Origin: Pelagibacteraceae bacterium
GTDB taxonomy: Bacteria; Pseudomonadota; Alphaproteobacteria; HIMB59
Assembly (NCBI GenBank): GCA_019651435.1
Contig: BOYI01000001.1
Location: 186,001 to 250,000 of the forward strand
Reading direction: 5' to 3'
DNA length: 64,000 bases
Position 1 is the first letter of the stretch. Each line of letters starts with the position of its first letter. This document shows, one piece after another, positions 13,194 to 63,064 of the stretch. A program made the position numbers and the translations under genes. The notes under the pieces are model-generated. The model saw only the letters and a list, made by a program, of their open reading frames with translations, was not told the DNA's origin and did no database searches.

Positions 13194-13202
13194 AAGGAAA
13201 TT

Positions 13203-13219
13203 TTATAAACTAGTTATAA
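13203..13219. promoter_or_regulatory. Inverted repeat in the iolG-iolE divergent promoter region
   Basis: TTATAA-ACTAG-TTATAA, a 6-bp inverted repeat with a 5-bp spacer, in the 98-bp gap between the divergent iolG and iolE genes. Its place fits a shared operator; its composition makes chance a real alternative. The rest of the gap is AT-rich with a weak GGAA-type site before iolE. Confidence 0.25.
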
Positions 13220-13291
13220 GACAAAAAAATAAAAAAGTTTTCACAAAGATTTATTTTAAGTATGATCATCCCTTCATAATGGAATTAAAAT

Positions 13292-45115: not shown

Positions 45116-45136
45116 TAATTAATTTAAATTAATTAA
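45115..45136 (-). repeat. 22-bp AT palindrome at the binding-protein/ATPase junction
   Basis: TTAATTAATTTAAATTAATTAA is a perfect 22-bp palindrome that spans the binding-protein stop codon, the 17-bp gap and the first base of the ATPase start codon. It has the same location as the hairpins in the other three binding-protein operons but is AT-only, so its stability as RNA is modest. Confidence 0.5.
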
Positions 45137-46290
45137 AGTAGAGCCTCTCCTCTATCAAAGAAGTTGTTAAGATAATCATCACTAGCCCAGTTCTCAATTC
45201 CAACTGTTCTAAACTCACTAGAGTTTCTGTCACAATCTTCAGGAACAAATGATTGAATAGTCTCTACATCTTCCTCATATGGAGGAACAAGAATGGATTG
45301 GATTTTTAATCCTTGACCTTTCATAGTTCTTAAAAGAACGTTCATTGCAAATTCAGCATCGTCTCCTGGAGGCCATGCATAAATAGCTCTGTCGATAAAG
45401 TCAGGGTTATTTCTCCAATAACAGAACGCACCAATCTCTCCACCTAAGGCCATTGGTACCATGTCTCTTCCAGATGACTCGAGTGCATTTAATGCACCTG
45501 ACTCACCAGAAGATTGAACTGCAAAACCATCAACTTGTGTAGTGTTAGCTGATAGCCATTTTTGTAATTCAGCTTGTGCGATTTGTGGTGTCCACATATG
45601 TGCAATTTCTGCAACAACAGTAATATCTGGATACTCTGCAAATCCATCTAACATACCTTGGTGCTGTGAGTCTGAAGCTGAAGTTCCTGGAATACCTTCC
45701 ATGATTACAACGTTACCTTCTCCACCAATAGTTTCAGCTAACCATGAAGCAATGTAGTACCCTGTTAACTTATAATTAACAGAAGTACTAATAGCATACT
45801 CGGAAGTTAAATATCCAGTCATAGAAGCAGTTGGTACTCCTTTGCCGTATGCATATTCAATAGTTGGGTTAAGAGCAACTGGGTTTGAACAACAAACAAT
45901 CAATCCATCGACACCTTGGTCAGTTAATTGTCTCATTTGTTGAATTTGAACTGCGTCTTTTAAGTTAGATTGTGTAACGACAATATCATTAAGAATGCCT
46001 GCTTCCTTCATCTTCGGTAAGTAGTCACCATACAATCTTTCCATAACACCTTTTCTCCACAGATTGCCCGCGTAAGAACTAGCATAACCGATAGTCCAAG
46101 GAAGTGGTCTATCACTTTTCCAGTTTCTGTATACACTTTCACCTAAAGGCTGATTGGGGTCCATAAAGTCAGGATCATAAACGAAGTCTCTGATATCAGC
46201 TGGGATTTCATCGAGAATGTCAGCGTTTACACTCGCTACACCGATAAAACTAACAGCTAACATCGCTATGAGCTTTTTAAGCAATGTCAT
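45133..46290 (-). CDS. Periplasmic binding protein of the fourth ABC importer
   Basis: A 385-residue binding protein, long for the family (usually 310-350). The signal peptide ends near residue 23 (VASVNA). It keeps the type-I pattern: WTIGYASSYAGNLWRKGVMERL near 62, LTDQGVDGLIVCCSNPVALNP near 117, AYGKGVPTASMTGYL, and EGIPGTSASDSQHQGMLDGF near 200. The ribosome binding site is AAGGAGGA and codons are of the highly expressed kind. The divergent promoter gap of 150 bp separates it from PxpA. The neighbouring Pxp and biotin enzymes suggest an amide, lactam or amino-acid-derived ligand rather than a plain sugar. Confidence 0.9.
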   Translation of the reverse strand: MTLLKKLIAMLAVSFIGVASVNADILDEIPADIRDFVYDPDFMDPNQPLGESVYRNWKSDRPLPWTIGYASSYAGNLWRKGVMERLYGDYLPKMKEAGILNDIVVTQSNLKDAVQIQQMRQLTDQGVDGLIVCCSNPVALNPTIEYAYGKGVPTASMTGYLTSEYAISTSVNYKLTGYYIASWLAETIGGEGNVVIMEGIPGTSASDSQHQGMLDGFAEYPDITVVAEIAHMWTPQIAQAELQKWLSANTTQVDGFAVQSSGESGALNALESSGRDMVPMALGGEIGAFCYWRNNPDFIDRAIYAWPPGDDAEFAMNVLLRTMKGQGLKIQSILVPPYEEDVETIQSFVPEDCDRNSSEFRTVGIENWASDDYLNNFFDRGEALL

Positions 46291-46440: not shown

Positions 46441-47226
46441 ATGGTCGACTTAAACTGTGACATGGGCGAAGGTTTTGGTATTTACTCTTTTGCCGATGAT
46501 GAGGAAATAATGCCATTTATTGATGCTGCTAATGTAGCTTGCGGTTTCCACGCATCTGATCCAAATACCATGAGCAAAACTGTTGAATTAGCAAAAAAAT
46601 TTAATGTTAAAGTAGGTTCTCATCCAGCCTATCCTGATTTAGTTGGTTTTGGCAGAAGACCTATGAAAATGAAACGTGAAGATATTAAAAATCTGGTTAT
46701 TTACCAGACAGGTGCCTTAAAAGCTTTTTTAGATGAGTATGATATGCCCTTAAATCACATTAAGCCCCATGGGTCTTTATATGGTGTTTCGGCTATAGAA
46801 GAAGAAGTAGCACACGGTATAGCAGATGCAGCTGAAATATTTAATGTAGGTGTGTTTGGCATGGTGAATACTTGTCATGAAAAAATTTACAAAGAAAGAG
46901 GAATAAAATTTTATGGAGAATTTTATTCAGATCTTGAATACGATGAAACCGGTTATCTAGTAATCGCAAAAGGAAGAAATAAATACTACCCCACTGATCG
47001 AGCTGTAGAGAGGTGCATGAGGGCAATAAAAAGAAAAAAAGTTACTACTATCCAAGGCAACGATGTAGTTGTTGGATGTGAAACAATATGTGTTCACTCT
47101 GATACTCCTAATGCTGTTGAAATCTTAAAAGCTCTAAGAGAAAAAATCTCCCCAAATAAAAGTTCAAAAGAAAAAAAAGATAATTCAAATCATTCTAAGA
47201 TGCCCTACATCGAAGACACTAAATGA
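46441..47226 (+). CDS. pxpA: PxpA/LamB-YcsF family 5-oxoprolinase subunit A
   Basis: A 261-residue TIM-barrel-like protein. DLNCDMGEGFGIYSF at the start, AANVACGFHASDPNTM near 28, KVGSHPAYPDLVGFGRR near 56 and HIKPHGSLYG near 102 are the family hallmarks. With PxpB and PxpC it makes the ATP-dependent 5-oxoprolinase of many bacteria. The C-terminal 20 residues are a Lys/Ser-rich addition. It overlaps the biotin carboxylase gene by 4 bp and is divergent from the transport genes. Confidence 0.9.
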   Translation: MVDLNCDMGEGFGIYSFADDEEIMPFIDAANVACGFHASDPNTMSKTVELAKKFNVKVGSHPAYPDLVGFGRRPMKMKREDIKNLVIYQTGALKAFLDEYDMPLNHIKPHGSLYGVSAIEEEVAHGIADAAEIFNVGVFGMVNTCHEKIYKERGIKFYGEFYSDLEYDETGYLVIAKGRNKYYPTDRAVERCMRAIKRKKVTTIQGNDVVVGCETICVHSDTPNAVEILKALREKISPNKSSKEKKDNSNHSKMPYIEDTK

Positions 47227-48725
47227 AAAAAATTTTAATCGCGAACAGAGGTGAAATCGCTTATCGCATAATAAAAAGTTGTAAAATTTTAGGGTATAAA
47301 TCTGTTGCCGTATATTCAGATGCAGATAAAGATTCAAAGCATGTGAGATCAGCAGATGAGTCTTATTATATCGGACCGAGCAAAGCCCAAGAGAGTTATC
47401 TGTCATATGATAAGATTCTAGATGTAGCCAAGAAGGCAAAAGTCGATGCTGTCCATCCTGGTTTTGGGTTTCTTTCAGAAAATGATCGTTTCGCTCAGGA
47501 AGTTATTAATTCGGGAATTACTTGGATAGGGCCTAAGCCAGCATCAATTAGATCGATGGGCAATAAAGACGTCGCTCGAGATTTAGCAATAAAATCAAAT
47601 ATTCCGATATGTCCGGGTATATCTGACATCAAAAAATTCAATCAAGATCAACTTCAGGATCAGTGTAAAAGCATTGGTTATCCTTTACTTGTAAAATCAA
47701 GTGCTGGTGGAGGGGGTATTGGGATGAGTGTTGTTCAAAACCATAAAGATCTTGAGGGAGCTATAGAAAAAACTAGCACCTTAGCAGAAAAATCTTTTGG
47801 AAATGGAGATATATTTATTGAAAAATTTATCACGAATGCACGCCATATAGAGATTCAAGTATTTGGTTTTGGGGCTAAAGGATCGGTTCATTTATTTGAA
47901 AGAGATTGTTCAATGCAAAGAAGATATCAAAAAATAATCGAAGAGTCGCCAGCTCCTGAAATTGACAGGACAGTAATTGAGTCCATGGCCGCATCAGCAG
48001 TCAAACTTGCTTCAGATGTAAAATACGAAGGAGCAGGAACTGTGGAGTTCATTTATGATGTAGATGAAAAAAAATATTATTTTTTAGAAATGAATACAAG
48101 AATACAAGTAGAACATCCTGTAACTGAATTAATTACCAATAATGATTTAGTCTCAATGCAAATCAAATTTGCATTTGATAGAAAAACAAAATTTTTAAAA
48201 CAGGAAAAAATTTCTTCTTATGGACATGCTATTGAATGTAGGGTTTATGCCGAAGATCCTAGCAAGAATTTTTTACCTTCACCTGGAAAAATAAAAAAAA
48301 TGAAATTTCCTGAAATACCTAATGGAATAAGATTAGATTGGGGTTATGACGAACAAGATGAAATAAGCTTTTATTATGATCCTATGATTGGGAAAATTAT
48401 TTCTCATGCCCTGGTGAGAGAGGATGCTATTGATAAGCTAATAAGTTTTTTGGAAAAAATTTCTATAGATGGAATAAAAACCAATATCCCTTTTTTAATT
48501 TCACTATTAAAAGATAAGAGATTTTTAAATGGTACTCACAATACTAAATATATTGAAAATAATCTTAATGCCTTGATAAGCACAACACCCAAATTTAATC
48601 AAACACCAAAGAACATTGATTTAAATCCAGGAAGAATTAAAATTGTTGAGACTGATAAATTAAAAGTTGCCCATGGCAGCAAAAAAACTAGCGAAGGGGG
48701 TATTAAAGTCGTTTACTTTGACTAA
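47223..48725 (+). CDS. Biotin carboxylase (AccC-like subunit)
   Basis: ATP-grasp enzyme of 500 residues that carboxylates biotin on the carrier protein. ILIANRGEIAYRIIKSCK at the N-terminus, KSSAGGGGIGMSVV near 155 (ATP loop), FERDCSMQRRYQKIIEESPAP near 225 and EMNTRIQVEHPVTE near 285 (catalytic Glu and Arg) are all intact. About 50 residues beyond the usual end are unrecognised. Its location beside PxpA, with a matching carrier gene on the opposite arm, makes a dedicated biotin-dependent complex more likely than fatty-acid AccC. Confidence 0.92.
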   Translation: MKKILIANRGEIAYRIIKSCKILGYKSVAVYSDADKDSKHVRSADESYYIGPSKAQESYLSYDKILDVAKKAKVDAVHPGFGFLSENDRFAQEVINSGITWIGPKPASIRSMGNKDVARDLAIKSNIPICPGISDIKKFNQDQLQDQCKSIGYPLLVKSSAGGGGIGMSVVQNHKDLEGAIEKTSTLAEKSFGNGDIFIEKFITNARHIEIQVFGFGAKGSVHLFERDCSMQRRYQKIIEESPAPEIDRTVIESMAASAVKLASDVKYEGAGTVEFIYDVDEKKYYFLEMNTRIQVEHPVTELITNNDLVSMQIKFAFDRKTKFLKQEKISSYGHAIECRVYAEDPSKNFLPSPGKIKKMKFPEIPNGIRLDWGYDEQDEISFYYDPMIGKIISHALVREDAIDKLISFLEKISIDGIKTNIPFLISLLKDKRFLNGTHNTKYIENNLNALISTTPKFNQTPKNIDLNPGRIKIVETDKLKVAHGSKKTSEGGIKVVYFD

Positions 48726-48731: not shown

Positions 48732-51005
48732 ATGTCTAGCCAATTAGTAGCCTCAATTAAACCTTCGCAGATACCGGGTTCTGACCCACAATCAACAAAA
48801 TACTTAATCGTTCCCATCTTTATTTTCTTTGCATTATTAATTTTTGCCATGATTCGAGGTCCTCAAATTATCTCAGGTTCTGGAATAGGCACTGCAATTA
48901 TGGTCTCAACACCATTAATTTTGGCCACTTATGGTCTTACCGCATTGTGTTTAGCTGGAAGAGTAACTGTGGATCTATCAATAGGACCTTTAATTGGTTT
49001 CATCAATGTGACAACCATTCAACTGTACGCGGCAGGGTATATCCAATCACCAGTGTCTTATTTTATATGTGCTTTAGCAATCGGTGTAATATACCAATTT
49101 TTATACGCCTTAATTGTTTTGTTTATAAGAGTGCAGCCAATAATTGTAGCACTTAGTATGTTCCTTGCTTTTTCTGGAATTAATTTAGTAATTCTACCCA
49201 GACCTGGTGGTCGTGCACCTGACTGGATGCTTTCTTGGAGCGCAGGTACAGAAATTATCCAACCAGTTTTAATACTTTTAATTTTTTCAACTTTAATTTG
49301 GTATGCTTTAACCCATACCGCCTATTGGCAACATTTAAAGTTAATGGGCTCAGATGAAAAATCTGCATATACTAGCGGTGTTAGAATTTATTTAGTTAGA
49401 ATTGGTGCTCATATTATTGGTGGTGTTTATGCAGCACTGGCAGCAATAGCATTTACCGGATTGATCGGATCAGGTGATCCAACTCAAGGCACAACTTATA
49501 CTTTAATGGCAGTGACGGCATTAGTTCTTGGAGGTTCGAGCTTAGTTGGAGGAAGAGGAGGGGCGTTTGGAGCTATCTTAGGTTCATTAAATATTTATCT
49601 GATTAACTTCATTCTATCGACTTTTAGATTTGAAAGATTTCAAAGTTTTGTTACTGATCTTTCCTATGGAGCGGTGTTGGTTGCTTCATTACTAATTCTT
49701 ATAGCATTGCCCTATATCCAAAAAGCTTTCAAAAATCTTTCGGTTTTTGTGTTTTTTATAATTGGAACTTTGAGTGCTGCTGCAGTTCAAATTCATATGA
49801 AGTTCGATCAAGTCACTCGAGGTACAGTTGGAGGGTTTGGTGGTAAATCAAAAGATGCAGAAATCTTTGAAAAAGCATTAGAGTCTGGAAGCGATTGTTT
49901 GATCACAGGTAAAGCTTGTGCTGAGGGAGGTAACTCAACTGTTTGGATGTTCATAGCAATTGGAATAGCTTCCCTTATTTACTTAGTATACTTGTTGGTA
50001 AAACATAGAGACGGTCCGACTGTATCTTTTATAATTGCTTCAATAGTCATCTTCTTTGGCTGTGTTTGGAGTGGGACAAGAGAGGCTTATTTTGTAAATG
50101 CTGATTTGGGCACAAATCTTCAATATATACTTAATTATGCCCCCCAATATTTTACATCTGAATACTTAAGAGTAGGAGCAGGATTACCAGATTTTTCAGC
50201 ATCTTCTAGCTTGTTGGTTAGTCTTGCTTACGCAGTATCAACCCTAGCAGGGATAGTTTTTTTTACTTCAGCAATAGTTATTATCGCTATGCCTAAATTT
50301 AGAAAAGAAATTAAAACTCAAACACTTGTATTATTTGCTATTGCTATATCTTTAATTGTTTTTGCTGCAATTTCTTACTATGGAATAGAGTCTAATAGGC
50401 GAAGCTTTTTCGGAGTAGATGGTTATGCTGTAATACTTGTTTTTTTACTTCTCTTTTTACTTACAGCTCCAACTTTCTTTTCTCAGGTAAACTTAAATAA
50501 TATTTTTATAGTTTTTTTAGGTATCCTTGCCATCTTGGCTATCTATTTCTTAGCTTCTCCCTCAGGAGTCATTTTAACTGACGACGGTAGTAAATATTAT
50601 CAGCCAATTATTACTGAACTTGTAGTTGGGGATACATCATCGATTAATTATGCTAGACCAATTCGCGGGGAGTTTATTTTTGATAATGTCACTTGGCTTA
50701 AAGAAGCTGCTTTAATTATTTTTGCTATATTTGTATTTCAGTTTTTCACTTTTTTAACAATGCAGGGGAGAATTACTTTTAGTAGATTTAAACCTTACAT
50801 TGCTATTCTAAGCATTGCTGCTTTAACTTGGTCAGCTTTATTTTTTGCAATAGGATATCCTTATTGGAAAATGATACTAATAGTTGCGATTGGAGTCGCT
50901 ATCTCACCTTTAATTTGGCAGGCTTTTAATATTTATAAAATTAAATTAAAATCACAAGAAGGTTTAGAGAAATGGGGGGGTCTGTCCGAAGATAGAAAAG
51001 TTTAA
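48732..51005 (+). CDS. ABC permease fused to a large unrecognised membrane domain
   Basis: A 757-residue membrane protein. Residues 1-335 are a BPD_transp_2 sugar-type permease: LCLAGRVTVDLSIGPLIG near 75, VQPIIVALSMFLAFSGINL near 138, and VLGGSSLVGGRGGAFGA near 260. Residues about 335-757 add some eight or nine further membrane segments with two extramembrane loops (about 365-405, with two Cys; and about 595-645). I know no family for this half. It lies 6 bp after biotin carboxylase and before a small membrane protein and another permease. Confidence 0.8.
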   Translation: MSSQLVASIKPSQIPGSDPQSTKYLIVPIFIFFALLIFAMIRGPQIISGSGIGTAIMVSTPLILATYGLTALCLAGRVTVDLSIGPLIGFINVTTIQLYAAGYIQSPVSYFICALAIGVIYQFLYALIVLFIRVQPIIVALSMFLAFSGINLVILPRPGGRAPDWMLSWSAGTEIIQPVLILLIFSTLIWYALTHTAYWQHLKLMGSDEKSAYTSGVRIYLVRIGAHIIGGVYAALAAIAFTGLIGSGDPTQGTTYTLMAVTALVLGGSSLVGGRGGAFGAILGSLNIYLINFILSTFRFERFQSFVTDLSYGAVLVASLLILIALPYIQKAFKNLSVFVFFIIGTLSAAAVQIHMKFDQVTRGTVGGFGGKSKDAEIFEKALESGSDCLITGKACAEGGNSTVWMFIAIGIASLIYLVYLLVKHRDGPTVSFIIASIVIFFGCVWSGTREAYFVNADLGTNLQYILNYAPQYFTSEYLRVGAGLPDFSASSSLLVSLAYAVSTLAGIVFFTSAIVIIAMPKFRKEIKTQTLVLFAIAISLIVFAAISYYGIESNRRSFFGVDGYAVILVFLLLFLLTAPTFFSQVNLNNIFIVFLGILAILAIYFLASPSGVILTDDGSKYYQPIITELVVGDTSSINYARPIRGEFIFDNVTWLKEAALIIFAIFVFQFFTFLTMQGRITFSRFKPYIAILSIAALTWSALFFAIGYPYWKMILIVAIGVAISPLIWQAFNIYKIKLKSQEGLEKWGGLSEDRKV

Positions 51006-51011: not shown

Positions 51012-51272
51012 ATGGAAAAAAGAACGCATAATTTTTTAAAAGGACTCGGTATTCTTTTTGCTGTTGCGGCAGGTATAGGTACAGCTGTTCTTGGCTATGT
51101 TGATAGAACAGATTGGATACAAGTTGCTTTTTACTCAGTAGCTGTTGTTGCCATCGTTTTATGGGGTTGGCACTTTTTTCTTGTCAGATGGTCTTATCAA
51201 TCTCAAGCTGGCGATACTAAAGAAACCGAAGATGATGAAAGCTCAAGTAAAAGAGGCCTTTTTGGGATTTAA
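51012..51272 (+). CDS. Small two-helix membrane protein
   Basis: An 86-residue protein with two membrane segments (GLGILFAVAAGIGTAVLG and VAFYSVAVVAIVLWGWHFF) and a charged C-terminal tail rich in Asp, Glu and Ser. It lies between two permease genes of one importer, 6 bp after the first, so it is probably an accessory subunit. No family recognised. Confidence 0.65.
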   Translation: MEKRTHNFLKGLGILFAVAAGIGTAVLGYVDRTDWIQVAFYSVAVVAIVLWGWHFFLVRWSYQSQAGDTKETEDDESSSKRGLFGI

Positions 51273-51331
51273 TTGCTAGAAATTGGATTGCTGTCACTGG
51301 TTTTTATTGTTATTAGGCTCTTTATACTTTT

Positions 51332-52389
51332 ATGTTTCTAGTGCCAGGCTTCTTCTCAGGAAGAACAGTTGTATCAGCTATTATTTTATTAGGTTTTCTA
51401 ATTTTAGCCTTTATTGCCTACAAATTCTTAAATGTAAATAAAAGTGTTATTATAGGAGTCGCTGTATTAGTGGGACTCTTTATTATAGGGTCAGTTTCAA
51501 TTGATGGGTTCCTGTCTTTACAAAACATCAAATCAATGTTGGTGTTTGCATCTTTCTTAGGTCTTGCCACCATTGGTCAGACGTTAGTGGTTATGTTAGG
51601 TGGCTTAGATCTTTCAATACCCTTTCTAATTGGCGCTACAAATCTTGGATTAATGTCATTAATTTCTCTCGGTGTTCCACCTTGGTTAGCATTTATTGTT
51701 ATTTTAGCATTTGGAACTGTCGTAGGGCTGTTTAATGGTTTGATAAGTTTTAACTTACAAGGACAAGCTCTCATTGTAACACTTGGGGTTGGTTTTATGG
51801 TTGTGGGTGGAGTGCAAATTTTAGTTTCTCTTCCTACAGTAACTGGTGGAACGGTTTTTGGAGTTGTGCCTGATTGGCTAAAAATCTTGCATCACTTAAT
51901 GGAAAATTTTTGGGTTACCCATTCCGCCAGTCATACTTATTTGGATTCTGTTTCTATTCTTCTTATTGTTGGTTTACGTCACACAAAATGGGGAAGAAAC
52001 TTATATGCTGTTGGCGGTAAAAGATTGTCAGCTGATCGATTATCAATCTCTGAGAGAGCTTACTGGGTGGGAGTTTTTGTAATAAGTGGATTTACATCTG
52101 CCGCTACGGAGCGATGCTTTTAGGTTGGAGTGGTGGTGGATTTATTGGAGTGGGTGATCAATATTTGTTTTTGACAGTCGCAGCTGTAGCCGTGGGTGGA
52201 ACCTCTTTGCTTGGAGGCTATGGTGGTTATGGTTTCACAGTTATTGGAGTATTAGCTCTGCAGGTGATCAGTACTTTCTTAGCTGGTTTAGGCTTAAGTT
52301 TTGAAGGACAGCAGTTCATATTTGGGCTTTTAATTCTTCCTTTAGTGGCCTTATATTCTAGAGCACCGCACATTAGGGAGCAAATATGA
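51332..52389 (+). CDS. Sugar-type ABC transporter permease (one-base frameshift near 52108)
   Basis: BPD_transp_2 permease of 352 residues when repaired. GQTLVVMLGGLDLSIPFLIG near 85, GQALIVTLGVGFMVVGGV near 145 and, in the second frame, AVGGTSLLGGYGGYG near 290 are the family marks. The frames join at GG (52108-52109); a third G restores SAATGAMLLGWSGGG. It is the partner of the 757-residue permease and the ATPase on the minus arm. The start may lie upstream: the 59-bp gap is partly open, but I see no better start codon. Confidence 0.82.
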
Positions 52390-52507: not shown

Positions 52508-53207
52508 ATGAATAAGATGCTTCTTCCCTACGATATCGTGGGAGGCTCTTTTGGTTAATTTCAGTGGCATGATTGGTGCCACCCTCTTTTTCTTTTTTGA
52601 AAGAAGCAAAGTCAGCTCTAGATTTCATACCCCAATGACAATGATAGCTGTTGTTTGCTTAATGTCATCTATTCACTATTTCTTTGTTAAAAACTTATGG
52701 GTTGTAAGCGGAACGGCCCCAACATTATTAAGATACATCGATTGGTTTTTAAACTTCCCAATGCTAGTGCTGATTTTCTACGCAATGTTAATGACTGTAG
52801 TTAAAGTTAAACAAGGAATGTTTTGGAGACTTTTGGTAGGAACATTAGTTTTTGTAGTTGCCGGTTTTTTAGGCGCTGCCGGTTACATGAGTAAAACCCT
52901 TGGTTTCATTGTTTGGTTAGCAGGATGGCTATATGTCTTAGGAGAACTTTATGTTGGTGAAGCAGGAAGAGCCAATGCAAAATGCGGTAATGAAAATATT
53001 CAAATGGTTTTTTTCTCTAATAGATTAATTATTACCATTGGCTGGGCTATTTATCCAATGGGATATTTCATTGAGCATTTAGGTGGAGGCATAGATACTA
53101 ATAGTGTTAATGTGATTTATAATCTAGCAGATTTCTTAAATAAAATAGTTTTTGGACTTATTATATATAAAGCAGCAATACAGGACTTAAAGGTAAATGG
53201 ACAATAA
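52508..53207 (+). CDS. Proteorhodopsin-family protein with a non-canonical helix C (frameshift near 52550)
   Basis: Seven-helix retinal protein, about 232 residues if the ATG at 52508 (GGAGAGG upstream) is joined to the frame starting at 52551. Counted from 52551: retinal Schiff-base lysine at 198 in YNLADFLNK with the counterion Asp at 194; RYIDWFLNFPMLVLIFY holds Arg 61, the proton-acceptor Asp 64, Asn 68 (usually Thr) and Ile 75 at the cytoplasmic donor site (usually Glu). His 42 next to the acceptor and Leu 72 (green-tuned type) are kept. The helix E Glu (GEAG) is Ala here. Lacking the carboxyl donor, it should have a slow photocycle. It lies between a permease and a flotillin-like gene, all plus strand. 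Confidence 0.88.
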
Positions 53208-53234: not shown

Positions 53235-55220
53235 ATGAACATTACTAGTGGAGCAGATATTATTGCAGTAATCATTTTAATAGCTTTAGCGATAGCTATT
53301 ATTGTTTACTTACTACATTGGCTTTACAGGCGATCTTCTAAAGAGATAGCATTTGTAAGAACTGGTATGGGTGGCGAAAGAGTTGTCATTAGTGGCGGTG
53401 CATTTGTTTTACCTATTATCCACAACATCACTTCCGTTGGTATGAAAACACTTTGTATCGAAGTGCAAAGGAATGGAAATAAATCGTTTATTACTAAAAA
53501 TAGAATGAGAGCTGAAGTTACTGCAGAATTTTATGTCAGAGTTGCGCCAACAAACGAAGCTGTATCTATAGCAGCTCAAACATTGGGTAATAGAACCCTG
53601 GAACCAGACCACCTAAAAGAATTGGTACAAGGTCGTTTTGTTGATGGTTTAGGTGTAGTTGCTGCAAAGATGAGCCTTGATGAAATTCAAGAAAACCGTT
53701 CTGAATATATCAAAAAGGTAGCCACTCATGTCGAAGAGGCTATTAAACATACGGGTTTAGAGCTAGAGACGGTTTCTCTAACATCTCTTAACCAGGCGCC
53801 AGTTAGTGTCTTTGATCCATCAAATACATTTGATGCCGAAGGTTTGACTCAAATTACTGAATTCACTCAATCTAGAAAAAAGAAGCGAAATGATATTGAA
53901 AAGGATACAGAAGTAAGTATCAGAAATAAAAATCTTCAATCAATTAAGCAAACTCTCGAAATTGAGAAAGAAGAAGAATTTTCTAAGTATCAACAAAAAA
54001 GAGAAATTGAACAACAAAGAGCTATTGAAAATACGGAAACAATTAAAACTAAAGCAGATAAAGAAAAAGAGTCTGAGTTAGCTGAAATTGCTTCAGAAAA
54101 AGATATTGAGATTGCGAGAATTAGTAAAAAAGACTTTGTTGAAATGGAAAAGAGCCTACAAGAAACAAAACTTATTCAAGAAATTGAAAAGAGAAGAAAA
54201 GAACAGAATGAGTTTAGGCAACAGACTTCAATAGAAATTAAACAAAAAGATATTGACACTGAGAAAACTATTCTTGAATTAGAAAGAGATGTTGAATTTA
54301 GTAGATTAGAAAAACAAAGATCAGTTGATATCAAATTAGCTGAAGAAAAAGCTCAAACTGCAAAAGAAGAAGCAAGAAAAAGATATGAGTCTGAAGAAGC
54401 TTATATCATGGCCGAAGAACAAATTAAAAATGCAAAAACAGCTCAACAAAAAAATGTGGACGCATTTAAGATTGCAGCAGAGCAAGAAACTAGAGTGCTA
54501 GATATCGAAAAAGCAAAAAGAATTGAAATTGAAGAAAAACAAAAACAAATGGAAGTTCTTGAAAAATCTAAAGCTGTTTTAAAAACTAAAATGGAAGAAG
54601 AAACTGCAAGGGCCAAAGCAGTCGAAGCCGAAGAAAAGGTCAATACCATTAGAGATGTTGAACAAGCTGAAAAAGATAAAGCTTTGGGTGTTATTGAAGC
54701 TAGTAAAAATGCGGAAAGAGAAAAACTCGCATCGATGGCTGCTAAAATAAGATATGAAATTGAAGCAGCTGGTAAAAAAGCTTTAAATGAAGCTGAAAAT
54801 GCAAGAAGTGATGCAAGTAGAAGAAGCGCTCTAAGACAAAAATTAGCTGAAAAAATTGAGGGAATTATAAGAGAATGGGTAAGACCAATGCAAAATATCG
54901 ACTCCATTAAAGTCGTCGATGTAAATGGACTACCCGGTTTCAGCCAAGGTGGAGGAGCAGAAGGTTCTGATAACCCAGACAATCCATCAGCCACAACAGG
55001 TGGTTACTCAAAAAAAGGTTCACTAGCTGATAATGTTGTAAATTCTGCGCTAAGATACAGAGCTCAACAACCTTTCCTTGATAGCTTGTTGAAAGAGATC
55101 GGCATGTCCCCAGGAGAAGCGAGTAATATAAGAAATATTTTAGGTGACTATGATGATCCTAAAAAAGATAAACATATGAGATTTGATGACGATGTTAAAA
55201 AAAATCCAAAAAAGAAATAA
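53235..55220 (+). CDS. Flotillin/SPFH-domain membrane protein
   Basis: A 661-residue flotillin-like scaffold. One N-terminal membrane segment (about residues 8-28) is followed by an SPFH domain (GERVVISGGAFVLPIIHN to LTSLNQAPV, about 45-195), then a very long Glu/Lys/Ala coiled coil (about 215-560) with heptad-like KEEEFSKYQQ and EEKQKQMEVLEK segments, and a Gly/Asp-rich C-terminus. The ribosome binding site is AGGAGGTGA. Flotillins organise membrane microdomains; next to a rhodopsin and a transporter this one may cluster them, which is inference. Confidence 0.88.
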   Translation: MNITSGADIIAVIILIALAIAIIVYLLHWLYRRSSKEIAFVRTGMGGERVVISGGAFVLPIIHNITSVGMKTLCIEVQRNGNKSFITKNRMRAEVTAEFYVRVAPTNEAVSIAAQTLGNRTLEPDHLKELVQGRFVDGLGVVAAKMSLDEIQENRSEYIKKVATHVEEAIKHTGLELETVSLTSLNQAPVSVFDPSNTFDAEGLTQITEFTQSRKKKRNDIEKDTEVSIRNKNLQSIKQTLEIEKEEEFSKYQQKREIEQQRAIENTETIKTKADKEKESELAEIASEKDIEIARISKKDFVEMEKSLQETKLIQEIEKRRKEQNEFRQQTSIEIKQKDIDTEKTILELERDVEFSRLEKQRSVDIKLAEEKAQTAKEEARKRYESEEAYIMAEEQIKNAKTAQQKNVDAFKIAAEQETRVLDIEKAKRIEIEEKQKQMEVLEKSKAVLKTKMEEETARAKAVEAEEKVNTIRDVEQAEKDKALGVIEASKNAEREKLASMAAKIRYEIEAAGKKALNEAENARSDASRRSALRQKLAEKIEGIIREWVRPMQNIDSIKVVDVNGLPGFSQGGGAEGSDNPDNPSATTGGYSKKGSLADNVVNSALRYRAQQPFLDSLLKEIGMSPGEASNIRNILGDYDDPKKDKHMRFDDDVKKNPKKK

Positions 55221-55229: not shown

Positions 55230-55619
55230 ATGAGTGTAGATATAAAGTCCTGGGCAAAAAAATATAAGGAGCTAACTGAAAAAGATGAAACAATTAAAGC
55301 TATGGCTAAGTATTATACATGTTCATTTCTTTTTGATATGGGAAGTGTAAAGGTAATCATTGAAATGCATGATGGCAAAGTAAAAAATATTAATACTAAT
55401 CCTGGTGGCTTAGATCCATATGATTTTGCTTTGAGAGCATCTGAACAAACTTGGAGAGAGTTTGCTAAACCAGTGCCTAAACCAATGTTTCATGGAATTT
55501 ATGCTGCTTCATTTAGAGAAGATTTAAAGATTGAAGGAAATCATCTTGTTTTGATGCAAAATTTAAGAAATTTTACTGTTCAATTTGAATTGTTAAGACA
55601 ATCAGGAGTCCCTGTATGA
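55230..55619 (+). CDS. SCP2-like small protein
   Basis: A 129-residue soluble protein. FLFDMGSVKVIIEMHDGKVKNI followed by NTNPGGLDPYDFALRASEQTW resembles the beta-sheet and helix order of SCP2 sterol-carrier-like domains, but similarity is weak by eye. It starts 9 bp after the flotillin gene and lies 25 bp before the alpha/beta hydrolase gene, so it belongs to the same operon. It could bind a hydrophobic ligand or form part of an enzyme complex. Confidence 0.5.
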   Translation: MSVDIKSWAKKYKELTEKDETIKAMAKYYTCSFLFDMGSVKVIIEMHDGKVKNINTNPGGLDPYDFALRASEQTWREFAKPVPKPMFHGIYAASFREDLKIEGNHLVLMQNLRNFTVQFELLRQSGVPV

Positions 55620-55644: not shown

Positions 55645-56508
55645 ATGGCTGTTAAACATCATGATCCTGTTGGTAGATACGTCACAATAGAGGTAGACGG
55701 CCAACAATACAAAGTTTTCTACCTTTCAAATGGAAAGGGCACTCCACTTGTTTGTCAACACACTGCTGGATGTCATAACCATCAATGGAGAGGTCTTTTA
55801 GAGGACGATGAAATTACTCAAAATTACCAAGTTATTGCTTATGATTTACCAAGACACGGTAAGTCTGATCCACCTCATAATACTGAGTGGTGGAAAGAAG
55901 AATATAAACTAACAGCTGAGCACTATTGCAACTTCATAGTTGAGTTATGTAAAGCTCTTGACTTAGAAAATCCTATATTCATGGGGTCCTCTTTTGGTGG
56001 AAATGTCGCTCTACAGCTAGCTTTAAAATACCCTAATAAATTTAAAGCTGTAATACCTGTTGAAGCCGCTCACTATTCACCTGGCTTTTATATTGACTGG
56101 TGGAGGCATCCTCATGCCAACGCCGCACAAGTATGCGGAAGTGGTGTTTGGGATTTAATGGCACCTCAATCTCCTGATATGGACAGATGGCTCACATGGC
56201 ATTATTACACTCAAGGCTCTGAAGCTTTCAAAGGAGATCTACATTTTTACTCTGTTGACCATGATCTAAGAGATGAACTTCAAAATATTGATGGCCACAA
56301 ATGTCCAGTGGTGATGTTAACAGGCACATACGACTATCTTACTCCTCCTGAAGCAACTGAGGATACTGCCAGACAAATTAAAGGAGGTGTATATATTGAA
56401 ATGAGAGATATTGGTCATTTCCCGATGAGTGAAAATCATGAGGTTTTCAGAGTTTACTTATTAGAAGCTCTAAGAATAATTAAGGAAAAGACTGATTATA
56501 ATTCTTAA
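55645..56508 (+). CDS. Alpha/beta hydrolase
   Basis: A 287-residue serine hydrolase-fold protein. Oxyanion-type loop LVCQHTAGCHNHQWRG near 32 (unusual in its His/Cys content), nucleophile Ser in MGSSFGGNVALQLAL near 115, likely acid Asp in LTGTYDYLTPP near 230 and His in MRDIGHFPMSE near 257. No signal peptide. It lies between the SCP2-like gene and the symporter. Substrate unknown; ester or C-C bond hydrolysis are both possible. Confidence 0.82.
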   Translation: MAVKHHDPVGRYVTIEVDGQQYKVFYLSNGKGTPLVCQHTAGCHNHQWRGLLEDDEITQNYQVIAYDLPRHGKSDPPHNTEWWKEEYKLTAEHYCNFIVELCKALDLENPIFMGSSFGGNVALQLALKYPNKFKAVIPVEAAHYSPGFYIDWWRHPHANAAQVCGSGVWDLMAPQSPDMDRWLTWHYYTQGSEAFKGDLHFYSVDHDLRDELQNIDGHKCPVVMLTGTYDYLTPPEATEDTARQIKGGVYIEMRDIGHFPMSENHEVFRVYLLEALRIIKEKTDYNS

Positions 56509-56522: not shown

Positions 56523-58578
56523 ATGGTCGCTAATCTATATTGGTTTTCTTTTTTTCTTATAATTTACATAAGCTTTTGTCTTTTTTGGGGAGCAAGAACT
56601 CTTAGAAAAAATAAAACGCCTGAGGCTTATTATTTAGCTGATCGAAGTGTTTCCCCATGGGTTTTCTTTTTTTCAGCAACTGTTGCAACATTTGCTGGTA
56701 TCACATTAATATCTTTTCCTGCATTAATTTACGCTGACGGATACTCTTTCTTAGCTACTGCCGCAATAGTAATTACAATTCCTCTTGGAAGCATACTTTT
56801 TTTTAAAAGACAATGGATGTTAAGTAGAAAATTTAATTTTATTACTCCTGGAGAGATGTACTTCAAATATTATCAAAGTAATACCCTAAGAGTTGTCGTT
56901 CTAATCATTGGATTATTTTTTGCTGTTCCATTTCTAGGTATAATTATTGGATCAACAGGCAATGTTGTTGAGTTTATAAGCGGTGGAGAAATTAGTCGGG
57001 ACTCAGCTATGTGGGCTCTAACTGCTTTGGTCCTCTTTTATATTGTTTCCGGAGGCTTTAAGCCAATGATTAGTATTGGAGTAGTTCAATCTTGGTTATT
57101 TTTTGTTTTCTTTTTATCTATTGGTATTGGAATTTTTTATTTTCTCGGTGGTTTAAGTTTTTTTGAAGACCTTTCAATGGCAAATAATTTTATTTCTTTT
57201 GGCGCTTGGGGTTCTACAGGAGGTTATGGAGGAGGAGATGTTTCAGGATATTTTAATATTCCTGGCGTTATTCAATGGATAGCGGGAATAGGAAAAAATA
57301 ATCCTTTAGGAGGCCCCCTGGACAGCAGTAATGATCCTATCATTTACTCTCTCTTATATGGGAATAGTTCTATCACCAACATTTTCAATGTGGAGTTACT
57401 CTGTAAAATCACCAAGATCTTTTTACTTTTACCAGGTTTGGGGGTCAGGAGCCATTATTGGAATTTTTTTATTTATAATTGCCCCATTGCTTGGAGTGGG
57501 CGCTCATTTGCTTGGCGCCAATTATTTAGTTAATGAAAATGGTTTTTCTATAAATCAATTATTTCCAGAATTAGATTTAAATAATATTTCCTCTTTGGTT
57601 TTTGTATTTATTGAGAGCTTTAGCTCGATTTCCCCGATCATTGTAGGCTTTCTTGCTATCTGTTTAATTGCTGCTCTTCAATCTACATTATCAGCTTTTT
57701 TAATGACTTCAGGTAGTATGGTTGCACGTGATCTTTATAGACCGTATATAGATAATAATCCTAGTTGGAAAAGAGAATTATTAGTCGCTAGACTTTCCAT
57801 GCTATTATTAAGTTTGGCTGCACTTTATCTCGCTACTTTTTTTGAAACTTCTCTTATCCTTTTAGGAGGGTTAGCAATTGCTTTCGGCTTTCAGTTATTT
57901 CCTGTTTTGCTCGGAATGCTTTGGTTTCCATGGATTACAAGAGGTGGAGCTATATTAGGTTTGATTACAGGTTTAATTTTTGTAACTTTGGCTGAAACCT
58001 TTGGTCATAAACTTACTGGTAATTCTCTTCCTTGGGGAAGATGGCCATTGACAATATATTCTGGTCTATGGGGACTTTTTTTTAACGTGATAGTTTGTTT
58101 TCTTTCTTCCATTTTTTCAAGCAATGATACTGACAAAGATCACAGAAAATCATTTCATGATTTTTTAAATGAACACATGGGTATACACCCTTCAAGAAAA
58201 AAAATTAAATCTTTGGCTTATGTTTTCTTTTTAATTTGGGCATTCTTTTCAATTGGCCCAGGACTAATATTTGGAAATTCAATATTTGGAAATGCTGATC
58301 AAAGTTATGATAAATGGGTCATGGGAGTTCCATCTTTGTGGGCATATCAAATTATCTGGTGGGTTGTAGGAGTGTTTTTAATTTGGTTCTTAGCAAACAA
58401 AATGGATTTATCTACTTTACCAAAAAAACCAATTTTAAATGGCGATGAACACTTGTCTCCTGATGATGTTGAGGAAAGAGGAAACTATATTGACAGAATG
58501 GGAGGAGGGTATGGCTGGCCTTTAATTCTTATCGGAATGGCTGTAGCAACTGTAATCCTCTCAGTCTATGCATTATGA
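56523..58578 (+). CDS. Sodium:solute symporter (SSS family; frameshift near 57350)
   Basis: Membrane symporter of about 684 residues with 13-14 membrane segments. N-terminal ARTLRKNKTPEAYYLADRSV and SATVATFAGITLISFPAL near 57 are SSS-typical, as is LVFVFIESFSSISPIIVGFLA in the later half. The two frames overlap in a TCTCTCT stretch at about 57346-57354 and join as YSLSYMGIVLSPTFSMW. Solute unknown. It is the last gene before a 104-bp gap that shows only AT-rich sequence and precedes the formamidase genes. Confidence 0.82.
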
Positions 58579-58682: not shown

Positions 58683-59111
58683 ATGTCTGATTATAGCTAT
58701 AAACACCCTTCCAATGTTCAACTAAACAAAGGCCACAAGCATACTGACGATTTTATTACTAAAAAATACATTTTAAAAATGCTCAGAGATCCTCAAAAAT
58801 TAAAATCTCTTATTGAAGAGCATAGAGCAACACCAGTAGGCAGAGCGGCCACAAGAGATCATGGGGTAATTCAACATAGTCAAGATTTACAAACATTATT
58901 AGACAAACTTAGAAGAGGTAGTAAAGAAAATGGATTTGTTACCGTCTGCCTAAGAAGACATGAAGACTACAGAATTGGTATTACAACTGGTGTCAGAGGT
59001 CAGCCAGTAGAAATTACTGAGGACTCCTATTCTTCAGAGGAGGCATGTGAGCATGCTATCTTTTTAAAAAGAATTAACAGACTTCTAGAGGAGTATAGTG
59101 GAGAAGAATAA
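58683..59111 (+). CDS. dmfA1: N,N-dimethylformamidase small subunit-like protein
   Basis: A 142-residue protein matching the small (alpha, about 132 residues) subunit of dimethylformamidase by size and place. The C-terminal half reads VTVCLRRHEDYRIGITTGVRG, then EDSYSSEEACEHAIFLKRIN. The start ATG has no strong Shine-Dalgarno. Its stop overlaps the large-subunit start by one base, as expected for a fixed-ratio complex. The assignment rests largely on the next gene. Confidence 0.72.
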   Translation: MSDYSYKHPSNVQLNKGHKHTDDFITKKYILKMLRDPQKLKSLIEEHRATPVGRAATRDHGVIQHSQDLQTLLDKLRRGSKENGFVTVCLRRHEDYRIGITTGVRGQPVEITEDSYSSEEACEHAIFLKRINRLLEEYSGEE

Positions 59112-61465
59112 TGTTAAAAATAACTGGATATAGTGATAAGTACTCAGCCCATCCTGGTGAAGAAGTAAAATTTTATGTGAACGCAGAATATAATGACAGC
59201 TATGAAGTACAATTAGTTCGTCTAATACATGGTGACACTAATCCTGAAGGTCCAGGATACAAAGAAGCTGAAATAGATGCTTCTTGTAATGGAAACTATC
59301 AAGGAAAAAATCAAAGAATACATGGTGGTTCTTATATAGTTATTCCTCAACATGATAATTTGAATTTAGAGAGCTTTACAATGCAGGCTTACATTTTTCC
59401 AACAACCCCTGATAAAGGTAGACAAGGCATATTTACCAAATTTAATGAAGAAGATAAAAAAGGTTATGGTTTGTTTGTTGATGAAAATGGATGTTTATCT
59501 GTTGAAATTGGTGATGGATCTCAAGTAACAAAAGTTACATCTGAAAAAAAACTCTTAAGAAAAGTTTGGTACTTAGTTATTGCTACTTTTGATGCTAAGA
59601 CTAGAAGACTTACTCTTCATCAAGAGCCAAGAGTAACATCTACAAACGGTGGTCTGGGTATGGCTATATTAAACCCTATTGAAGAAACATCTGCTATAAT
59701 AGAGACAACCAGTTCAGTTGTTCCCGCTTCTAACGACTCACCTTTACTAATCGCTGCTACGACATTAAATAACAGATCAGGTAGACATATTTCTGGAGGA
59801 CACTTCAAAGAGGTGCCTCACCCAATTGAACTCCCAGAACAAACACTTACATTTAATGGTAAAATTGATAGACCTAGATTATCCAATATTGCCCTATCTA
59901 AAGCAGAAATTGAGTCATTAGCATCTAGTTATGATGAATGTAATACTACTGTAAGATCCACAGTGGTTGGCGCATGGGATTTTCATGCAAATATTGGTAA
60001 AAACATAGCTTCAACAAAAGTTGTTGATACATCTCCCAACAATCACCACGGCTTCATTATTAACATGCCAAATAGAGGTATGACTGGTTACAATTGGACA
60101 GCAGATGAAATGGTTTTTCATCATAAGCCAGAAGAATATGGGGCTATTCATTTTCATGATGACGATATTGATGATGCAAGATGGGATGTTGATTTCACAA
60201 TAAAGATTCCTGAGGGTTTAAAAAGTGGTGTTTATGCTGCTAGATTAAGAGTAGATGGAAGAGAAGAGTCAGAAAATGAGGATTATATTCCATTTTGTGT
60301 GAAGCCCCCTAAAGGAAAAGCTACTTCAAAAATTTTATTTTTACTTCCAACAAACAGTTATATGGCATACTCAAATGACAACTTAGGTACTAACTCTGTT
60401 GTAGCACAATTGTTAGCAGGAAAAGTCCCCGTCTTAGAACCAGCAGATTTATATCTTAATGAACACAGAGAATATGGTTTATCGACTTACTCGTTACACT
60501 CTGATGGTCATGGTGTTTCTATTTCCTCTAGATTAAGACCTATCTTAAATATGAGACCTAAATATCGTCATTGGTTATCTCCATCTTTATGGCAGCTCAA
60601 TGCTGATTTGCATTTAACCGACTGGCTTGAAGAAAAGGGTTTTGAATTTGATGTATTGACTGATGAAGATCTTCAACACGAAGGTGTTAATTTATTAAAC
60701 CGCTACAAAGTAGTAATGACAGGTAGCCACCCTGAATATTCCTCAGAGAAATATATGGATGCTCTTGAATCTTACCAAATGCAAGGCGGTAGATGTTTTT
60801 ATTTAGGCTCTGATGGTTTTTATTGGATAAGTGAATATCACCCAGATAATTCAAACATTACTGAAGTAAGAAAAGGTGAAGCTGGTACTAGGGCTTGGAC
60901 ATCAAACCCTGGTGAGTACAATAATGCTTTTGATGGAAAATATGGTGGCATGTGGAGAGCTAGAGGAAGAATTCCTTCCAAGGTTTGTGGTTTAACTTTT
61001 ACATCTTACGGTTTTGATGTTTCATCTTATTATAAAAGAGAAGAAGATAGCTTTAAGCCTGAATGTTCATGGATATTTGAAGGTATTGGAGCAGATGAAG
61101 TTATTGGAGATTTTGGATTAGTAGGCGGTGGTGCGGCTGGTCTAGAACTAGATAGGTATGATCTTGAGTTCGGAACTCCACATAATGCTTACTATCTTGC
61201 CAGATCTCAAGACCATTCAAACATGATGTTACAGGTGAATGAGGAAATTCATTTTGCTGTCAGGGGATATTATGGTGGTGGCCATGAAAACCCAATGGTT
61301 CGCGCAGACATGATTTACTATAAGACACCAAATGATGGAGCTATGTTTGCTCCTGGATCTCTTGCATGGTGTGGTAGCCTCTCTCACAACAACTATAACA
61401 ACAATGTCTCAAGAATTATGGAAAACACACTAAAAGGTTTTCTAAAAGATGGGCCATTACCTTAA
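59111..61465 (+). CDS. dmfA2: N,N-dimethylformamidase large subunit-like amidohydrolase
   Basis: A 784-residue protein close in length to the dimethylformamidase large subunit (about 760). Residues about 70-290 look like a LamG/concanavalin-like domain (LESFTMQAYIFPTTPDKGRQG; TFNGKIDRPRLSN); the remainder is the hydrolase part with a FLLPTNSYMAYSNDNL strand near 418, SHPEYSSEKYMDALESY near 538 (likely the Glu and His region of the mononuclear iron site) and CGSLSHNNYNNNVSR near the end. DMFase splits N,N-dimethylformamide to dimethylamine and formate. In the ocean the natural substrate may be another N-alkylformamide or amide, which the sequence cannot tell. Confidence 0.82.
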   Translation: MLKITGYSDKYSAHPGEEVKFYVNAEYNDSYEVQLVRLIHGDTNPEGPGYKEAEIDASCNGNYQGKNQRIHGGSYIVIPQHDNLNLESFTMQAYIFPTTPDKGRQGIFTKFNEEDKKGYGLFVDENGCLSVEIGDGSQVTKVTSEKKLLRKVWYLVIATFDAKTRRLTLHQEPRVTSTNGGLGMAILNPIEETSAIIETTSSVVPASNDSPLLIAATTLNNRSGRHISGGHFKEVPHPIELPEQTLTFNGKIDRPRLSNIALSKAEIESLASSYDECNTTVRSTVVGAWDFHANIGKNIASTKVVDTSPNNHHGFIINMPNRGMTGYNWTADEMVFHHKPEEYGAIHFHDDDIDDARWDVDFTIKIPEGLKSGVYAARLRVDGREESENEDYIPFCVKPPKGKATSKILFLLPTNSYMAYSNDNLGTNSVVAQLLAGKVPVLEPADLYLNEHREYGLSTYSLHSDGHGVSISSRLRPILNMRPKYRHWLSPSLWQLNADLHLTDWLEEKGFEFDVLTDEDLQHEGVNLLNRYKVVMTGSHPEYSSEKYMDALESYQMQGGRCFYLGSDGFYWISEYHPDNSNITEVRKGEAGTRAWTSNPGEYNNAFDGKYGGMWRARGRIPSKVCGLTFTSYGFDVSSYYKREEDSFKPECSWIFEGIGADEVIGDFGLVGGGAAGLELDRYDLEFGTPHNAYYLARSQDHSNMMLQVNEEIHFAVRGYYGGGHENPMVRADMIYYKTPNDGAMFAPGSLAWCGSLSHNNYNNNVSRIMENTLKGFLKDGPLP

Positions 61466-62110: not shown

Positions 62111-63064
62111 ATGGAAAAAAAAATAAGTACGAATTATAAAAAATCCGATCTAGATAAATTTGAGAAAATTATTACTAATAAAAAAACCGATTTATATAAA
62201 GAAGAATACAACATCAAAGAAGCCATTGAGTCATCAAAACAAGAATACAAACATCTGATAAACTCTCAAACAGCAACAGATATTCGTTTATATTTTTTTC
62301 AAACTGGAACTCTGAAAACTAAAATGAAATACATAAAAATGAATCAATCAAATGAAGATTTTGAAATACCAGTTCCATGGTTTCTTATAAGGCATCCCAA
62401 AGGTGATGTTGTAATTGATGGAGGTAACGCTAAAGAAGTTAGCGAAGATAAACATGCACACTGGGGAAATGTTGTTGCCGCATATGATCCTGTTATGGGA
62501 AAGACCGAAAATTGTATAGACCAATTAAATTCTATAGGCATTAATCCCTCTAGTATTAGATATGTTCTCCACTCTCATCTTCATTTAGATCATTCTGGTG
62601 GAGTTGGAAGATTTCCTAATGCAACGCATGTAGTTCAACAAAAAGAATATGACTATGCTTTTAACCCAGATTGGTTCGCAAAACCTGCCTATATTCGTGC
62701 AGACTTTGATAAACCAGGTATAAATTGGAAATTCTTAAGAGATAAAAATGATGATTATTATGATCTTTATGGTGATGGTTCAATAATCATTATTTTTACC
62801 CCAGGACACGCACCGGGACATCAGTCTTTTTTAGTGAGACTATCAAATTCTGGGTATGTTTTATTGACCATCGATGCTGCGTATACGATGGATCATTGGA
62901 ATGATTTGACCTTGCCTGGATTAGTTTGTTCAGCTGTGGATACAGTGAATTCAGTAAAAAAATTAAAAAAACTGGCTAAAGAAAAAAATGCATTAGTTGT
63001 AACAGGTCATGATCCTCATGCTTGGGAGGATTTTAAAAAAGCCCCTATGTTTTATTACGACTAA
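62111..63064 (+). CDS. Metallo-beta-lactamase-fold hydrolase (AHL-lactonase-like family)
   Basis: A 317-residue metallo-hydrolase. The HxHxDH motif SHLHLDHSGG near 155 binds two metals, with later ligands in IIIFTPGHAPGHQSF near 231 and the Asp in LLTIDAAYTMD near 254, and VVTGHDPHAW near 300. The N-terminal 50 residues (KKSDLDKFEKIITNKKTDL) are a charged helical addition. N-acyl-homoserine-lactone hydrolysis is a family possibility, but in this operon it more likely acts on a product of the amidohydrolase. Confidence 0.82.
   Translation: MEKKISTNYKKSDLDKFEKIITNKKTDLYKEEYNIKEAIESSKQEYKHLINSQTATDIRLYFFQTGTLKTKMKYIKMNQSNEDFEIPVPWFLIRHPKGDVVIDGGNAKEVSEDKHAHWGNVVAAYDPVMGKTENCIDQLNSIGINPSSIRYVLHSHLHLDHSGGVGRFPNATHVVQQKEYDYAFNPDWFAKPAYIRADFDKPGINWKFLRDKNDDYYDLYGDGSIIIIFTPGHAPGHQSFLVRLSNSGYVLLTIDAAYTMDHWNDLTLPGLVCSAVDTVNSVKKLKKLAKEKNALVVTGHDPHAWEDFKKAPMFYYD

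Follow-up and report, generated by a model that had tools for sequence, protein, structure and literature searches.

The rhodopsin gene at positions 52551 to 53207 of a 64,000-nucleotide stretch of Pelagibacteraceae DNA (the whole stretch is called the window below) almost certainly codes for a member of the flotillin-associated rhodopsins (FArhodopsins), from an alphaproteobacterium in the HIMB59 clade. We favor, tentatively and as somewhat short of probable, the reading that this protein pumps no protons and that, with the flotillin encoded by the next gene, it holds or regulates an extended-permease ABC importer that feeds lactone or hydroxy-acid catabolism. Three observations go beyond the portions of PMC10308929 used here, the paper in which FArhodopsins were named: FArhodopsins in family f66, where Blh has no match; operon homologues on plasmids that have lost D97 and the retinal lysine; and the link between the opsin and an N-terminal extension of ABC permease 2.

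The FArhodopsin gene and its neighborhood

Haro-Moreno et al. (2023; PMC10308929), who named the FArhodopsins, drew on single-cell genomes and metagenomes and reported none from cultivated marine microbes; the sections of that paper used here give their helix C motifs as DTT, DTL, or DNI, and assign DNI to HIMB59, where the tuning site holds Gln or Leu. A sequence-only reading of the window had described a rhodopsin with DNI in helix C and had known no characterized group with that motif. The motif does belong to a published group, and the rhodopsin as first described is already known, not a new kind. Possible rhodopsin homologues of the same clade without functional prediction are reported as a group in the part of PMC10308909 used here. 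A search of the open-licence PMC literature for microbial rhodopsin and flotillin returned nothing relevant beyond PMC10308929.

The best PDB matches of the window protein, both titled flotillin-associated rhodopsin, are 9r23 (E = 4.1e-82) and 9r21 (E = 2.6e-81). Their titles identify 9r21 as PsFAR and 9r23 as a double mutant of it, H84V/E120G; no accompanying paper for these 2025 entries was found in the open-licence PMC literature. A model of the relative L033 (mean pLDDT 72.5) matched 9r21 with a TM score of 0.82 by query length; PsFAR is 56% identical to L033 in this structural match, and the residue numbering is alike. PsFAR has H84 and E120 where the window subclade has F84 and G120, Thr and Met at the T101 and E108 positions of green proteorhodopsin, Phe at H75, and Gly where the window subclade has W137.

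The gene cluster expected from the published account (PMC10308929, in the sections used here) surrounds the window rhodopsin. Its features are as follows; the PxpA-like and biotin-carboxylase-like genes were named by sequence reading and from the cluster list of that paper.

32188 to 36445, minus strand: ABC ATPase, ABC permease, and auxiliary-protein-like genes (gliding/auxiliary type by eye)
36521 to 37546, minus strand: iron-containing alcohol dehydrogenase
43334 to 45115, minus strand: sugar-type ABC ATPase of the importer
45133 to 46290, minus strand: periplasmic binding protein of the importer (Peripla_BP_4)
46441 to 47226, plus strand: PxpA-like gene
47223 to 48725, plus strand: biotin-carboxylase-like gene
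48732 to 51005, plus strand: ABC permease 1, 757 aa, with a longer C-terminus than its counterparts of 321 and 324 aa in two Rhizobium operons that lack rhodopsin
51012 to 52389, plus strand: ABC permease 2, in three pieces (51012 to 51272, 51332 to 52123, and 52114 to 52389)
52551 to 53207, plus strand: FArhodopsin frame with the DNI motif, 218 codons, helices B to G complete and helix A cut short
53235 to 55220, plus strand: flotillin, 661 aa, with SPFH/Band 7 (PF01145) and Flot (PF15975) domains, 27 bases past the rhodopsin stop
55230 to 55619, plus strand: 129-aa protein with weak similarity to the SCP-2 sterol carrier (E = 0.043, below the cut-off)
55645 to 56508, plus strand: alpha/beta hydrolase, which gave no match in a PDB search at E = 1e-10
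56523 to 58578, plus strand: sodium:solute symporter-like gene, in two overlapping frames (56523 to 57533 and 57331 to 58578)
59111 to 61465, plus strand: N,N-dimethylformamidase beta-subunit-like protein
62111 to 63064, plus strand: AttM/BlcC-family lactonase (NF045700, 429.5 bits against a cut-off of 390)

Like the HIMB59 FArhodopsin of PMC10308929, as described in the sections used here, the window protein has the DNI motif, the retinal lysine, and an adjacent flotillin on the same strand, and its cluster likewise contains the symporter, PxpA-like, biotin-dependent carboxylase, and dimethylformamidase genes. It differs in the frame change near its start, and the rhodopsin-flotillin spacer is 27 bases against 16 nucleotides in the published Pelagibacterales cluster. 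Each of the 54 FArhodopsin loci examined, many of which are near-copies or come from the same genome twice, has a flotillin on the rhodopsin strand; by tblastn ends it is adjacent in 53 of these and further off in the partial hit L068. Flotillin alone is unspecific, with matches in 302 plasmid records, mostly from Escherichia.

The rhodopsin had at first been started at 52508, but the ATG there is out of frame and its own frame stops after 16 codons; the open frame, which matches Bac_rhodopsin (Pfam PF01036, E = 2.5e-30) over its residues 2 to 210, has its N-terminus broken by a frame change near 52550. N-termini are intact in the 16 other distinct DNI proteins, which are 232 to 239 aa long, against 250 to 255 aa in proteorhodopsins of the same genus. 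With permease 2 (51012 to 52389) and the symporter-like gene (56523 to 58578), the rhodopsin (52508 to 52551) makes three split genes in a span of 8 kb. Relatives are intact where read; permease 2 and the symporter-like gene are single frames there, of 463 and 684 aa. Because relatives are intact and two neighbors are also split, an indel-prone assembly is the likely source of these frame changes. Indel errors may also lower the completeness estimate of the source genome (1.35 Mb in 7 contigs, rated 69% complete). It is highly improbable that the rhodopsin is a decaying pseudogene or an assembly artefact: the frame change and the two split neighbors would fit such a view, but for the family the 16 distinct intact DNI proteins and low dN/dS values (below) contradict it.

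Phylogeny, retinal pocket, and selection

Alignment to proteorhodopsins bore out the residues that had been named from the sequence: D97, H75, D227, K231, and L105 (green-proteorhodopsin numbers) are kept, and T101, E108, and E142 are replaced by Asn, Ile, and Ala. The donor site thus holds Ile and no carboxylate, whereas E108, like E142, is Glu in 31 of 31 proteorhodopsin rows. E142 had been called a helix E residue; the Ala stood, but in the L033 model the site (residue 124) ends helix D (residues 103 to 125). With the green and blue proteorhodopsins 7b03, 4jq6, and 4knf the window protein shares the fold, D97, K231, D227, and H75, and its L105 is that of green forms; it departs from them in lacking E108 and E142 and in the changes T101N, V102F, and G155W.

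An unrooted tree was built from 58 rows, comprising 31 proteorhodopsins and 27 FArhodopsins (26 natural and one engineered PDB mutant), and the two groups separated at 100/99. Such a tree had been proposed in the sequence-only reading; in it the 17 distinct sequences with DN followed by Ile (16) or Val (1) form one clade with support of 97/96, and since 17 distinct sequences share it, the motif is not a chance feature. Within this clade the window subclade (13 rows) has L105, G120, and W137, and the four sister rows have Q105, E120, and G137. In green proteorhodopsin the residue at the W137 position is G155, a pocket Gly that is invariant in the 31 proteorhodopsins; we take this position to be S141 of bacteriorhodopsin, at the retinal ring. 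A search of viral contigs found no relative of the window rhodopsin.

The natural FArhodopsin rows (marine, f66, and Kiloniellaceae) combine a loss with a conservation. The donor Glu is found in 0 of 26 and Ala at E142 in 26 of 26, while K231, D97, W98, Y76, Y200, D227, N230, and R94 are kept in all 26. Of 21 pocket positions, 15 are invariant in the 31 proteorhodopsins; the natural FArhodopsin rows keep 8 of these 15 and vary at 7. The ratio of variation in the pocket to that in the rest of the protein was 0.637 in a panel of six FArhodopsin rows; matched proteorhodopsin panels averaged 0.405, and none of them (0 of 1,432, the panels sharing sequences) was as high. A narrower hypothesis, with remodeling confined to the ring end of the pocket and the Schiff-base end kept, was dropped when a split test did not support it: at the ring end, 205 of 2,188 proteorhodopsin panels reached the FArhodopsin value (554 of 2,303 without L081), and at the Schiff-base end 0 of 2,188 did, the proteorhodopsins being invariant there.

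Because the donor Glu is missing from all 26 natural rows and Trp occupies an invariant pocket Gly, a normal proton pump is unlikely, and the suggestion that this is no normal energy-yielding pump fits both the missing donor and the altered pocket. The other half of that suggestion, an outward pump of slow turnover without an internal donor, fares worse and is very unlikely. It can draw on D97 and H75, kept as in proteorhodopsin, but E108 and E142 are both absent from every natural row, pocket positions have changed, and operon homologues (below) lack D97 and K231. A DTT relative expressed in E. coli, moreover, bound no retinal and left the pH unchanged, and the authors predict an absent or reduced retinal pocket in FArhodopsins (PMC10308929, in the sections used here).

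The same authors propose, in those sections, that FArhodopsins regulate a coexisting proteorhodopsin. The corresponding reading makes the marine FArhodopsins retinal-binding proteins that regulate the importer or a coexisting proteorhodopsin in response to light, the lysine-less forms reflecting later loss; it is a serious possibility although we regard it as rather doubtful. In its favor, Lys, Asp, and the rest of the Schiff-base residues do not vary across the 26 natural rows, and dN/dS values are 0.01 to 0.04 in five DNI pairs, whose dS of 1.0 to 3.1 is at or near saturation; values were 0.05 to 0.16 in three f66/Kiloniellaceae pairs and 0.05 to 0.11 in five proteorhodopsin pairs. The Trp at the G155 position, the variation at 7 of 15 otherwise invariant pocket positions, and the failure of the DTT relative to bind retinal point the other way.

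Retinal supply in the HIMB59 family and in family f66

Genomes of the HIMB59 family lend the retinal-binding reading further support. Classed by score, 38 of 52 encode FArhodopsin, 44 proteorhodopsin, and 31 both (one genome, G007, contains another FArhodopsin of lower score, and a short match in G025 was left unclassed). Blh was found in exactly the 44 genomes with proteorhodopsin. In G018 it lies near the proteorhodopsin gene in a cassette ordered crtE-proteorhodopsin-crtI-crtB-crtY-blh; the names were given by reading, with family support for Blh and lycopene cyclase. By their gene content, HIMB59 genomes appear able to make retinal. Flotillin was found in 38 of 38 FArhodopsin genomes and in 4 of the 14 others.

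We considered whether the 7 of 38 genomes with FArhodopsin only represent life without proteorhodopsin, and rejected this as mostly explained by gaps. IspH is essential, and the IspH gene adjoins the cassette in G018; 6 of the 7 genomes, the window's included, gave no IspH match. In the window's own genome (69% complete) proteorhodopsin, Blh, and IspH all lacked a match, and since Blh and the essential IspH are missing too, the absence of proteorhodopsin there is probably an assembly gap. The G029 contig begins inside a crtE-like gene, which elsewhere precedes proteorhodopsin, and its lack of proteorhodopsin and Blh likewise looks like an assembly gap, again in keeping with retinal binding. 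In the seventh genome, G007 (about 150 contigs), IspH is present in another context. G007 carries two FArhodopsin-flotillin clusters, L081 on C23 and L082 on C125, one of them divergent with W197F and P201H, and no proteorhodopsin-class or Blh match; a mixture of strains is possible.

A search of 385 genomes of the class led to the alphaproteobacterial family f66, whose FArhodopsins are 52 to 54% identical to that of the window. They occur in 6 of 11 genomes, always as the sole rhodopsin, and these six genomes are 4.0 to 4.5 Mb in size and 95 to 97% complete. This differs from the FArhodopsin genomes of PMC10308929, which, in the sections used here, always also encode proteorhodopsin. Blh had no match in any of the 11 f66 genomes; no control genome matched in that search, yet the same model matches 44 of 52 HIMB59-family genomes. 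The best CrtY matches in the six genomes scored 22.6 to 26.3 bits over at most 44 of 380 positions, against 116 to 143 bits in five proteorhodopsin genomes, and in two of the six, stretches some 40 residues long exceeded the cut-off, which is low at 23.4. Sole FArhodopsins in a family without a Blh match count against a retinal-binding regulator. RPE65-type oxygenases are, however, encoded in 9 of 11 f66 genomes, including members without rhodopsin; they are a possible retinal source, and that they might make retinal counts against the reading we favor.

Five of the six f66 loci and the Kiloniellaceae locus L069 share one gene order: binding protein, ATPase, permease 1, permease 2, FArhodopsin, flotillin, 129-aa protein, and hydrolase; the sixth f66 locus starts inside the ATPase gene. 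The HIMB59 arrangement differs in that the binding protein and ATPase genes are on the opposite strand. Between the window and the f66 and Kiloniellaceae loci, the hydrolase (82 to 84% identity) and the 129-aa protein (77 to 80%) are far better conserved than FArhodopsin itself (52 to 54%) or flotillin (47 to 49%).

Plasmid operons, the permease 2 extension, and a proposed role

Eight PLSDB records match the window rhodopsin. Two are from Polymorphobacter (26% identity); the other six are from Pararhizobium gei, Hoeflea sp. IMCC20628, Martelella sp. AD-3, M. lutilitoris, "Dysgonomonadaceae," and Shinella sp. PSBB067. The record CP070278.1 ("Dysgonomonadaceae bacterium zrk40") is nearly equal in size to NZ_CP066788.1 (M. 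lutilitoris), has identical match scores, and bears the same cold seep label; it is probably mislabeled or from a mixed culture. The Shinella record NZ_CP069303.1 (L173), filed as a plasmid with 4.6 Mb and two annotated features, may be a chromosome.

In the four annotated loci the upstream half consists of the 129-aa protein, hydrolase, AttM lactonase, binding protein, ATPase, and permease(s), followed by the rhodopsin and then by flotillin, a small protein, a symporter-like protein, and an iron alcohol dehydrogenase; permease 1 of Hoeflea is unannotated and was detected by tblastn. The opsin thus occupies the same slot as in the window, between an ABC permease and flotillin. Across these four loci, from three genera, identity to the window proteins is 76 to 77% for the hydrolase, 53 to 65% for the lactonase, and 55 to 56% for the alcohol dehydrogenase. 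Succinate-semialdehyde dehydrogenase comes next in both Martelella loci and is absent in Pararhizobium; the Hoeflea stretch ends earlier. By tblastn, the unannotated Shinella locus has the importer, rhodopsin, flotillin, a hydrolase of 47% identity, and a 129-aa protein of 30%, with no AttM or iron alcohol dehydrogenase match at E = 1e-4. The 129-aa protein (54%) and hydrolase (76%) are also paired, beside an aldehyde dehydrogenase, at 11518 to 14381 of the Rhodococcus qingshengii plasmid NZ_CP042915.1 (L175), and the stretch read there gave no importer, opsin, or flotillin match; the enzyme pair also exists alone, in an actinobacterium.

All five plasmid opsins read have D97 replaced by Gly, and K231 is replaced by Arg in four and by Leu in Shinella; the two Martelella opsins among the five differ by one residue. 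Four of the plasmid opsins side with FArhodopsins against the 31 proteorhodopsin rows at 100/99, on long branches, and the Shinella branch measures 3.0 changes per column. Lysine-less rhodopsins are described in PMC10308929, in the sections used here, as Rh-noK and freshwater FArhodopsins from metagenomes. The plasmid homologues resemble these in lacking the lysine beside a flotillin, whereas the window protein keeps it; they differ in their named, mostly cultured hosts and in the lactonase and alcohol-dehydrogenase genes of 4 of 5 loci. The main text of that paper contains none of the words plasmid, lactonase, and Rhizobi, and searches of the open-licence PMC literature for bacteriorhodopsin with flotillin and AttM, and for Martelella and Hoeflea with rhodopsin, returned nothing relevant. 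A light sensor, as suggested early on, is possible, but homologues in the same operon slot have lost the retinal lysine.

Permease 2 of the opsin-bearing operons has an N-terminal extension of about 130 residues, to which the first permease 2 piece of the window belongs. Among 60 PLSDB records that match permease 2, it is covered in full (94 to 100%) in six, exactly those with an opsin; the other 54 cover less than 80% (46 from Rhizobium, 4 from Agrobacterium, 3 from Sinorhizobium, and 1 from another Shinella), and among the matches listed, from 30 of the 60 records, the short ones begin at residue 134, without the extension. Two rhodopsin-less operons that were read contain the binding protein, the ATPase, two permeases of 321 to 339 aa, and a hydrolase of 33 to 40% identity, one of them also succinate-semialdehyde dehydrogenase; neither stretch gave a match to rhodopsin or flotillin, and the permease 2 core is 53 to 61% identical between these and FArhodopsin operons. 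The extension is homologous across HIMB59, f66, Kiloniellaceae, and three plasmid genera, at E values from 1e-26 to 1e-5 (very small database, filters off), with no significant match between HIMB59 and Shinella; its start in f66 and Shinella was set by distance from the end of the frame. By simple hydropathy it has between two and five membrane-like segments. Operons with an opsin also have a longer permease 1 (464 to 801 aa) than those without (321 to 324 aa), but as a second opsin marker its extension was discarded: the sequence is unconserved, and 80% coverage was reached in 1 of 60 records, the query itself.

In the mechanism we favor, the seven-helix opsin and the flotillin of the next gene would hold or regulate the ABC importer, to which permease 2 would contribute its extra N-terminal membrane region. 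The importer would feed a catabolic set of alpha/beta hydrolase, AttM/BlcC-type lactonase, and iron alcohol dehydrogenase, which may point to gamma-lactones or hydroxy acids as substrates; we infer these because the lactonase scores above its family cut-off and the alcohol dehydrogenase resembles that of the plasmid loci. In the blcABC pathway of Agrobacterium, as described in the part of PMC3907764 used here, gamma-butyrolactone is converted to succinate by way of gamma-hydroxybutyrate and succinic semialdehyde, and the lactonase is BlcC (AttM). That pathway also gives some footing to a different role, a seven-helix receptor for a small ligand, such as a lactone-pathway aldehyde held as a Schiff base on the conserved lysine, that signals substrate to the importer. 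The Lys/Asp/Asp cluster, kept while other pocket positions change, would suit such a receptor; the loss of the lysine from the plasmid homologues and a split test that gave no ring-end-only remodeling do not, and we consider it unlikely.

The main counter-evidence to our favored reading, a nonpumping FArhodopsin that serves the importer, is that the Schiff-base residues are kept in all 26 natural rows, which is difficult to account for if retinal never binds. The apparent capacity of HIMB59 genomes to make retinal also weighs against it; the plasmid opsins, on their long branches, may differ in function, and the association with permease 2 may reflect one evolutionary event. A bolder form, in which opsin, flotillin, and enlarged permease make up one assembly and the opsin is a light-independent subunit of an importer that probably takes up gamma-lactones or hydroxy acids, its retinal chemistry vestigial in ocean bacteria and lost in the Hyphomicrobiales plasmid operons, seems to us possible, if on balance less than probable.

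FArhodopsins occur in abundant ocean bacteria, and the plasmid homologues in cultured Martelella, Hoeflea, and Pararhizobium, with the rhodopsin-less sister operons of Rhizobium as natural controls, make their role testable by ordinary genetics. Because the plasmid operon homologues have lost the retinal residues and kept their neighbors, our results suggest that the work of the opsin lies with import and membrane scaffolding, not with light harvesting. If this is true, a rhodopsin fold would have become part of a catabolic importer, as a structural or regulatory subunit that acts independently of light.
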